From: Thermoplasmata archaeon
GTDB lineage: Archaea > Thermoplasmatota > Thermoplasmata > Sysuiplasmatales > Sysuiplasmataceae
DNA length: 44,315 nt
Direction of reading: 5' to 3'
NCBI GenBank assembly: GCA_021817225.1
Contig: JAKAVR010000011.1
Location: 1-44,315 of the forward strand
Under the pieces are notes generated by a model that worked only from the letters and a program-made list of their open reading frames with translations, searched no databases and was not told the origin of the DNA. A program made the translations under genes and the position numbers. Every line of letters begins with the position of its first letter. The first letter of the stretch is position 1. Positions 36,254 to 38,965 of this stretch are shown here, one piece after another.

Positions 36254-36360
36254 TGAAATCACCTTTCAATCTGGCTGGAATTGCACCATTCAGGGCTCCA
36301 TTCTACGGCCAGTGGAGCGGTCCTATAAATTATCAAGTGTGATCACTACTGTAAAAAGGT

Positions 36361-36396: not shown

Positions 36397-37176
36397 ATGA
36401 GTTCAGCCAAAGAAGAGCACAAGCGTCCATCCACTCGCATCCTCAGCATTGGAAGGGAAAAGTGCATCACGGGCATAGAGGGACTGGACAGCGTCCTTGG
36501 AGGCGGCATTCCAAGGAACAACACGGTTCTCCTGACAGGCAACTGCGGCACTGGCAAGACTTCACTGTCGCTCGAATTCCTGCTTCATGGTGCGCTTGAG
36601 GGTGAAAACGGGCTTTACCTTTCGGTGACAGAGCCGTTTGAAAAGCTGATAGCCAACATGATTCCATATGATTTTTTCACAAAAGAACTCATCAAGACGG
36701 GAAAACTGACATTTATTGACATGTCGGCGATTTACGAGAGATTTGGTTTCAACAGGGACAGGATGAGCATTGAAGATGTCGATCTCCTTGTCAGCGCCAT
36801 AGGTGACCTGACACGTGAGACCAAGGCTAGGAGACTTGTCATTGATTCGATAACATCGGTAGCATATCAGGTCGATTCGCAGGAGAAACTCAGGAATCTG
36901 CTGATAGGCCTCAGCAAGGCGCTCTCCGGGCTTGGGGCAACATCGCTCATAATCTCCGAACTCACTGCGGCCGATACCTCCTATTCAAAGTACGGGGTGG
37001 AGGAGGCAATAGCAGACGGAGTGATACTCATGGGGAATCTAGAGAGGAACGGAGACATGCTCAGGACACTGCAGGTCATTAAAATGAGGGGAACATCCCA
37101 CTCAAGGGCGAAATACGTGCTTGACCTGACAACGGCCGGAATACTTCTGGTTCCCCTTCTTAAGGGGGGCAGCTGA
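36397..37176 (+). CDS. KaiC-family ATPase with intact P-loop
   Basis: A 259-residue RecA-superfamily protein. Walker A is GNCGTGKTS (48-56). Walker B lies in RRLVIDSITSVAYQ, and the C-terminal IKMRGTSHSRAKY is the KaiC-type motif that contacts nucleotide across a subunit interface. The catalytic-acid region reads SVTEPFEKL instead of the EE pair of KaiC, so ATP turnover may be slow. Such archaeal ATPases are often signalling or motor-associated switches (ArlH is one). It heads an operon: the next gene starts 3 nt after its stop. It is probably the only true ATPase of the three. Confidence 0.88.
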   Translation: MSSAKEEHKRPSTRILSIGREKCITGIEGLDSVLGGGIPRNNTVLLTGNCGTGKTSLSLEFLLHGALEGENGLYLSVTEPFEKLIANMIPYDFFTKELIKTGKLTFIDMSAIYERFGFNRDRMSIEDVDLLVSAIGDLTRETKARRLVIDSITSVAYQVDSQEKLRNLLIGLSKALSGLGATSLIISELTAADTSYSKYGVEEAIADGVILMGNLERNGDMLRTLQVIKMRGTSHSRAKYVLDLTTAGILLVPLLKGGS

Positions 37177-37178
37177 CA

Positions 37179-37745
37179 ATGGATGCAAGCGCGATGGTCC
37201 TCAAGGAGCTGAAGGATGTCGAGCCTTCGACTTCAACTTCACTCGAGATCTCTACCGAAGTTTACTTTGACGCAGTCAAGGGGCTCATGAACCTGAAGGA
37301 CGAGAGCAAGTCTCAGATCGTCTATATTGCCTCCACTGTTCCCGCAGATGCGATAATAAACGCAATGGAGATGATCGGTGTTGATTCGGATGATGTCAAG
37401 TTCATTGACTGCATTTCAAACATGATGACAGGGCAGCAGGGCAAGTATGATAACGTTATTTTCATCGAAAGCCCGACAATGCTCGAGAACATAATGCTGA
37501 AAGTCGAGTTCCTGAGGCGAAAGTCCGCCGCCAAGAGGTCAATTGTCATAATAGACTCTGTCAACACGCTGCACATACACAACGACTGGAAGATTATGGG
37601 AGAGTTTCTCCATATCCTGGTGAACAGCCTTCGGTCCAGGGGCTCTACGACAATCATACTGAGCATAAAGGAGCAGCAGTCGCCGGAGGTCAACACCCTC
37701 CTGGGACTGATAAGCGACAGGGTAGTGAAGATAGGTGGTGTATGA
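37179..37745 (+). CDS. KaiC-like protein lacking the P-loop
   Basis: 188 residues with the fold order of the KaiC core but no GxxxxGKT motif. IVYIASTVPADAIINAMEMIGVD matches the strand that follows the P-loop helix in KaiC, and SIVIIDSVNTLHIHND is a Walker B-like strand. The protein therefore begins where the P-loop domain would be truncated and cannot hydrolyse ATP by itself. It is likely a partner or decoy subunit of its neighbours. It starts 3 nt after the first gene and shares ATGA with the third. A few haloarchaeal proteins have a similar degenerate RecA layout. Confidence 0.75.
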   Translation: MDASAMVLKELKDVEPSTSTSLEISTEVYFDAVKGLMNLKDESKSQIVYIASTVPADAIINAMEMIGVDSDDVKFIDCISNMMTGQQGKYDNVIFIESPTMLENIMLKVEFLRRKSAAKRSIVIIDSVNTLHIHNDWKIMGEFLHILVNSLRSRGSTTIILSIKEQQSPEVNTLLGLISDRVVKIGGV

Positions 37746-38467
37746 TGCCTCTTACAACAGGAATAAAGGAGCTTGACGGAGTCCTGGGAGGAGGATTTGT
37801 AGAGGGGACGGTCTGTGCAATAGTCGGCCCCCCTGGATCCGGAAGCGGTGTTTTCGCAAGGAGATTTGCCACAGTCGGGGACGAGGAAAGCTACTATTTC
37901 ACGACCAACGAGGGCACAGACGATGTATACAGCTCACTGAAGAGATTCGGATGGAGTACCGACACTACCGTTGTCGACATAGGGGACAAGTATCATGACA
38001 CGGTCCTGATGAGAAGGCTCGAGATCACCAAGTACAGGCAGGAAGGATTGAAGGTGAAGGATGTCCACGAGTATGCGGAAATGAGCGACAGGCCATTCAA
38101 TTTCCTGACATACCTTACTCATGAGATTTTCGGGGTGAAACCGCCATTCAGGGTGATTGTGGACTCTCTCGACTTCTTCATTGACACGTACGGGGTGGAG
38201 GAAGTGCTCAGCTCACTCAGGACACTCAGGGCATACACAAACAAGAACAAGAGCCTCATGATTGTAACCCTCACAAAGGGAGTTTTCGATGCAAAGGTCC
38301 AGAATTCCATTGATGCGCTCATGGATACTCTTATTGAGCTTGAAAGGGAGAGAGTCGGAAAGAAATTCGAAAGCAACCTTATTGTCAGCAAGGTCAAGAA
38401 CTTCCCCGAGAGGTCCAGGATAATGCAGTATTCCGTGGGCGATAACGGCATTGCGCTTATGGACTGA
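37742..38467 (+). CDS. KaiC-like protein with a broken P-loop
   Basis: 241 residues. N-terminal TTGIKELDGVLGGGFVEG is the KaiC start motif, followed by the loop GPPGSGSGV (29-37), in which the invariant Lys and the next Ser/Thr are Ser35 and Gly36. A Walker B-like VIVDSLDFFIDTYG follows, and SNLIVSKVKNFPERSRIMQYSV replaces the KaiC KMR motif. Without the Lys it probably binds nucleotide poorly, if at all. The gene overlaps the preceding one by ATGA and abuts the convergent RDD gene with no spacer. It may be the regulatory member of a KaiC complex. Confidence 0.8.
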   Translation: MMPLTTGIKELDGVLGGGFVEGTVCAIVGPPGSGSGVFARRFATVGDEESYYFTTNEGTDDVYSSLKRFGWSTDTTVVDIGDKYHDTVLMRRLEITKYRQEGLKVKDVHEYAEMSDRPFNFLTYLTHEIFGVKPPFRVIVDSLDFFIDTYGVEEVLSSLRTLRAYTNKNKSLMIVTLTKGVFDAKVQNSIDALMDTLIELERERVGKKFESNLIVSKVKNFPERSRIMQYSVGDNGIALMD

Positions 38468-38965
38468 TCAGAAGTCGTTTGGCTGCCTTACTTTCACATG
38501 TATGAGGGACGAAGCCGGAAGCGTCGAAACCACCGTTGTCTCAAAGACCCTGTCCACAAACCTCTGCCTCGGATCGCCGTAAGTGAACATGCCCAGCAGG
38601 AGATCCAGCGGGAGCATTATGAACCAGAACAACTTCGGCACGTTCCTGAAAGCTGCCTCATGCAGCGAAACATCGCCCTTCTCGCTTGATACCCTGAGTG
38701 AGGCAAGTTTCTTGCCCAGCGTATAGCCGTAGAAGTACTCGCTGAGCGTCGAGTAAGTGAACCAGCAGATACCCGAGGCTATTCCCACAAAAAGGTCGAA
38801 GTAGGCCTTCTCAAGTCCAAATGAGAGTGCAATTGCCCATACGGGAACGAATACCGTGGCAATATCAATGAGTCCCGCACCCACCCTCTTCATCCAGTGC
38901 GCCCTGAGAACCCTGTTCTTGAAGAGCATCTCGAAAGCTATCGACATCCCAATCCCTTGCATCAT
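38468..38965 (-). CDS. RDD-family membrane protein
   Basis: 165 residues with the RDD pattern: RAHWMKRVGAGLIDIATVFVPVW contains the Arg and the Asp of the family, followed by two more hydrophobic segments and RFVDRVFETTVV near the C-terminus. Three to four membrane helices are visible. Function is generally unknown; some members are linked to ion or small-molecule transport. ATG 38965 and 38962 are adjacent, and ATG 38947 (MSIAFEM) fits a TATA box at 38981-38987 with a short leader, so the start is uncertain. It abuts the KaiC-like gene on the opposite strand. Confidence 0.8.
   Translation of the reverse strand: MMQGIGMSIAFEMLFKNRVLRAHWMKRVGAGLIDIATVFVPVWAIALSFGLEKAYFDLFVGIASGICWFTYSTLSEYFYGYTLGKKLASLRVSSEKGDVSLHEAAFRNVPKLFWFIMLPLDLLLGMFTYGDPRQRFVDRVFETTVVSTLPASSLIHVKVRQPNDF

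Follow-up and report, generated by a model that had tools for sequence, protein, structure and literature searches.

Why should an archaeon keep, in one tight operon, a KaiC-family protein with an intact ATP site next to two relatives whose nucleotide sites are dead? The question is raised by three genes of the window, by which we mean the whole stretch of 44,315 nucleotides that was analysed. It is a contig of a genome of 1.97 Mb (95% complete, with 14 KaiC-type matches), whose closest relatives among the collected genomes are MAGs of Thermoplasmata, including Candidatus Sysuiplasma. A preliminary description of this DNA, made from its letters and open reading frames, had spoken of an operon with "stepwise loss" of the P-loop and had suggested a hetero-oligomeric ATP switch "not described under a known name".

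Three KaiC-family proteins in one operon

The genes for protein A (36,397 to 37,176, 259 aa), protein B (37,179 to 37,745, 188 aa) and protein C (37,742 to 38,467, 241 aa, with another possible start at the ATG at 37,745) follow one another head to tail on the forward strand, and the spacings of 2 nt from A to B and -4 nt from B to C, already given in the preliminary description, are those of the ORF coordinates. A candidate archaeal TATA box, TATAAATTAT, can be read directly at 36,324 to 36,333 on the same strand, about 64 nt 5' of the start of A. At the other end, the gene for an RDD-family membrane protein (38,468 to 38,965, reverse strand) abuts C in convergent orientation. All three products, called as ORFs, match the Pfam KaiC family as had been claimed, with PF06745 scores of 192.6 bits for A, 33.5 for B and 69.8 for C against a curated cut-off of 26.6 bits.

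Only protein A has the full residue set of an active KaiC ATPase (Walker A, Walker B and trans finger). Aligned with KaiC, its Walker A motif reads GNCGTGKT (K54 and T55), and the same alignment gives E79, the Walker B residue D150, the trans finger K229-M-R231 and H235; its C-terminal tail, LLVPLLKGG, is conserved too. The Lys, the Thr, the Asp, the finger Lys and the His are kept in 70/70 A homologs, and the finger Arg in 67/70. The nearest solved relatives of A by sequence are KaiC proteins, which could be taken in favour of a circadian or timing oscillator similar to cyanobacterial KaiABC. We find such an oscillator very improbable, since A consists of one KaiC domain and scores far under the circadian KaiC cut-offs, and since no KaiA- or KaiB-type gene was seen among the neighbourhoods read. 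As a candidate circadian KaiC, A was rejected for its single domain, in place of the tandem CI-CII arrangement, and for its 119.1 and 163.9 bits against the profiles TIGR02655 and PRK09302, whose cut-offs are 546 and 408 bits, respectively. The assignment of A or C to ArlH was rejected as well (44.2 and 43.7 bits against the NF052589 cut-off of 215).

Protein C, whose residues are numbered here from the ATG at 37,745, has GPPGSGSG at Walker A, with Ser in place of the Lys and Gly in place of the Ser/Thr, and retains the Walker B residue D140 and the finger K216-V-K218. Its AlphaFold model (pLDDT 88.5) matches KaiC and ArlH/FlaH (4yds) in Foldseek with a TM of about 0.74. The loss is a phylum-wide one: the Walker A Lys is missing in 48/49 C homologs and the Ser/Thr in all 49, mostly with Glu instead. 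Despite this, the finger Lys is present in 49/49, and the second finger position is Arg or Lys in 49/49. A homolog that has the Walker A Lys (GTSGAGKE, with Glu for Ser/Thr; locus L087, 4,944 to 5,705) is a possible intermediate. Two other C orthologs carry N-terminal extensions (L102, 4,064 to 5,014, 316 aa; L103, 3,473 to 4,453, 326 aa), and neither has an identifiable ortholog of A or B immediately beside it.

In protein B the P-loop is gone altogether, strand 19-24 of the AlphaFold model (mean pLDDT 87.7) running straight into helix 26-43. The C-terminal hairpin that bears the finger is also absent from this model, and B is left with neither half of the ATP site, where A has both and C the trans half. 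The best PDB matches of the model (Foldseek) are KaiC-family proteins, such as 2dr3 with a TM of about 0.72. When the profile of B was compared with those of A and C, the E-values were only marginal (0.0068 and 0.0039, at low probability), so that the KaiC membership of B stands on Pfam and on structure; the B profile had no match among PDB sequences. B and C also show a weak similarity to DUF835 (PF05763) and DUF7504 (PF24336), with scores under both cut-offs. B has signature motifs of its own, ESPTMLENIMLKvE and DSiNsLaIHN..kIlsEFlHI, and these private motifs (for example ESPTMLENIMLK and DSINSLAIHN) are nearly invariant. Another locus (L095, 3,651 to 5,334) has three divergent B-type paralogs whose orientations alternate. 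The P-loop states first read for the three proteins are therefore correct; the expression "stepwise loss" fits these states, and should not be taken for an evolutionary order, which is not demonstrated.

Conservation across the Thermoplasmatota

The trio is not a chance reading of ORFs, since B is found in 108 and C in 94 of 215 genomes of the phylum. A is present in 106 genomes, and A and B together in 104, being adjacent in 99 of these. A scan for B returned 54 loci, all from Thermoplasmata-type archaea (outside the Thermoplasmatota, the occurrence of B and C was covered by pattern scan only), with A directly upstream of B wherever the contig extends and C downstream in 32. The preliminary description had proposed to survey the trio in relatives, and had considered that B or C existing alone elsewhere would refute it. 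The association largely stands for C, which is always single copy and is found downstream of B, at most 2 kb away, in 89/94 genomes, and B without A is rare (4/108). It is not strict, however, and in part the objection foreseen there does apply: three of the 94 genomes with C have no B (G024, G034 and G035), and 17 of the 108 with B have no C. When 18 genomes were checked singly, a C ortholog (>340 bits) was found in exactly the nine that have C beside B and was absent from the other nine, where the best match was about 50 bits. A and B are thus the core, and C is a frequent third member. Since many genomes have A and B without C, a strict ring of three parts is not a universal feature.

In related pairs, dN/dS is 0.02-0.18 for A, B and C alike, which denotes purifying selection (in the more divergent pairs, synonymous sites are almost saturated). 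The claim of a conserved operon combining one intact KaiC protein with two whose nucleotide sites are dead has thus held up, all three being under purifying selection. One could still argue, from the lost P-loop motifs, that B and C arose as duplicates of A and are now decaying. We give this view next to no credence, because the same losses are seen phylum-wide, dN/dS is so low and the private motifs of B are strongly conserved; decay of B and C is ruled out by dN/dS and conservation.

Pilins and other neighbours

The genomic neighbourhood adds to the preliminary description, both for pilins and for a MetOD1-related gene. A type IV pilin gene (Pilin_N, PF07790) is the next downstream gene in 30/46 evaluable related loci. 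Grouped at 70% B identity, the loci form 14 groups, of which nine have a downstream pilin. These pilins often come as tandem pairs, usually 70-300 bp off and on the same strand, and the upstream neighbours of the pilin-linked modules vary by lineage; further pilin-adjoining cases are L079, L080, L084 and L088. The order in relatives such as L037 and L048 is HtpX - A - B - C - pilins - RDD, the pilin genes sitting between the module and the RDD gene, and that in the window is HtpX - SFM1-like - A - B - C - RDD. This comparison indicates that pilins were lost from this slot, or never entered it, in the lineage of the window. Beside the trio, that lineage itself has no pilin, and none was found in loci of the Aciduliprofundum type or in the members sampled from families f20 and f21.

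The window genome does encode pilus components elsewhere, with an operon on contig C7 (pilin-like, T2SSE, TadC, TadC, T2SSE) and a same-type pilin standing alone on contig C38. Some 8 kb upstream of this genome's type IV pilus operon there is a KaiC-type ATPase (L097, 2,602 to 3,312). A tblastn search with its T2SSE and TadC found no pilus machine beside the trio in any locus tested, and matched one near B paralogs in L093. In two genomes (G107 and G093; loci L099, 2,308 to 10,548, and L100, 4,588 to 13,043), a T2SSE-TadC-pilin operon is faced, in convergent orientation, by tandem B-type pseudo-KaiC paralogs together with an active KaiC; in L100 response-regulator-like and signalling genes lie upstream. 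At the genome level, the co-occurrence of trio and pilins is 106/111 versus 45/104, a figure uncorrected for phylogeny and driven largely by families lacking both; we give it little weight, since it is confounded by phylogeny.

The neighbours also bear on the main rival reading, in which the trio would be a general KaiC signalling hub, switched by phosphorylation or ATP state and relaying sensory input to varied outputs such as transcription, the pilins being one client or neighbours by ancestry. In 18 genomes B and C are separated by a gap of about 600-1130 bp, which, where read, holds a gene for a MetOD1-related protein with an HNOB/V4R-like signalling domain. Such a gene occupies this position in L083 (5,285 to 6,400, with the domain duplicated), L094 (4,364 to 4,930) and L101 (2,807 to 3,373); MetOD1 itself has been described from methanogens. 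The window genome has another three-KaiC cluster (L063, on contig C61, 1,561 to 8,449 and 9,754 to 10,119), which adjoins genes for a CheY-like protein and for a GAF/histidine-kinase-like protein of 1298 aa; the third of its KaiC proteins is extended at the N terminus by a zinc-ribbon-like part. The inserted gene and this second cluster both speak for a hub, as do the non-pilin neighbours in several lineages and a published hub proposal, cited in PMC5847659. On the other hand, pilins are by far the commonest partner and recur with different upstream genes, and none of the three window proteins carries a fused DNA-binding or output domain. We consider the hub a real possibility, if a rather doubtful one.

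A tentative mechanism

That the trio is kept across the phylum, often beside pilus genes, suggests that it is probably a switch for a cell-surface fibre and not a set of decaying copies. The reading that we tentatively prefer, and for which we would claim somewhat less than even confidence, is that A, B and C form an ATP-switched, KaiC/ArlH-like hetero-oligomer regulating type IV pilus assembly or output in the Thermoplasmatota. KaiC inserts a Lys-x-Arg/Lys finger into the ATP site of its neighbour. C keeps this trans finger and its own ATP motif is gone, which fits what a mixed ring needs. We infer a complex in which A would be the sole subunit able to bind and hydrolyse ATP. C would stand beside A in the ring and its finger would enter the ATP site of A; its own site would stay empty, and the ring would thereby be asymmetric. 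B, having neither half, may be an adaptor on the ring or in it. Binding to a regulator or to some component of the pilus would then depend on the ATP state of A, and the assembly would act on type IV pili much as ArlH does on the archaellum motor.

A different arrangement would have A as a self-sufficient homohexamer of the KaiC/ArlH kind, with B and C binding it separately and transiently from outside the ring, in roles comparable to those of KaiA and KaiB. A indeed retains every cis and trans residue, many genomes have A and B without C, and B has neither finger hairpin nor P-loop. Nevertheless, it is difficult to see why C should keep its finger in all homologs, despite the lost ATP motif, if the finger does not reach into the site of a neighbour, and we regard the homohexamer as unlikely. 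The finger residues of C might, for their part, be kept for folding only.

The mixed, pilus-regulating hetero-oligomer can be put in a bolder form: a phylum-wide KaiC ring with built-in asymmetry, one ATPase and two pseudo-ATPases (one of them finger-only), controlling the type IV pili of Thermoplasmatota. In this form we think it more doubtful than the hub. If true, a fixed trio with one live KaiC subunit and two dead ones would be an example of this family arriving at an asymmetric switch, as other ATPase rings have done. It would also provide a candidate pilus control unit for a large and mostly uncultured archaeal phylum, and would turn the general proposal of an archaeal KaiC hub into a specific, testable complex.

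Comparison with known systems

The KaiC rings that are well studied are homo-oligomeric, their subunits having either a single domain or tandem domains. Compared with the CI domain of cyanobacterial KaiC, A has the same fold and active-site layout, including a KMRG-type trans finger, with Thr-Glu where KaiC CI has Glu-Glu. The trio differs from KaiC in that A is single-domain, the dead paralogs are separate partners, and no KaiA or KaiB appears in the neighbourhoods read.

The preliminary statement that the system is "not described under a known name" holds for the trio as such: we found no description of it in the literature searched, an earlier mention being possible in the mBio 2017 KaiC hub paper and the J Bacteriol 2024 CirA paper. 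It is too strong as to kind (PMC5847659, PMC4858521), since inactivated KaiC partners and links between KaiC and pili are already known ideas. KaiC-type ATPases have been reported in the archaellum and near type IV pilus loci, and arCOG01171, arCOG01174 and other pilus-locus ATPases likewise place a KaiC gene beside pilus genes (PMC4858521; the strings "Thermoplasm" and "inactivated" have no match in its main text). CirA of Haloferax volcanii is a KaiC homolog affecting motility and shape, and is similarly tied to archaellum and motility control; unlike in our trio, a pseudo-ATPase pair is not mentioned there (PMC13286277).

ArlH/FlaH is close in another respect, being a single-domain KaiC-type protein tied to a type IV pilus-like machine, and its structure 4yds is among the best structural matches of C; yet the trio is not part of an archaellum operon, and A and C score far under the ArlH cut-off. 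Finally, inactivated KaiC (iKaiC) partners are an established concept of archaeal signalling, and the iKaiC, DUF835 and DUF7504 proteins (PMC5847659) resemble B and C in having a KaiC fold with an inactivated ATP site. What distinguishes the trio from them is the fixed presence, in a single operon, of an active KaiC and two dead subunits that differ from each other.
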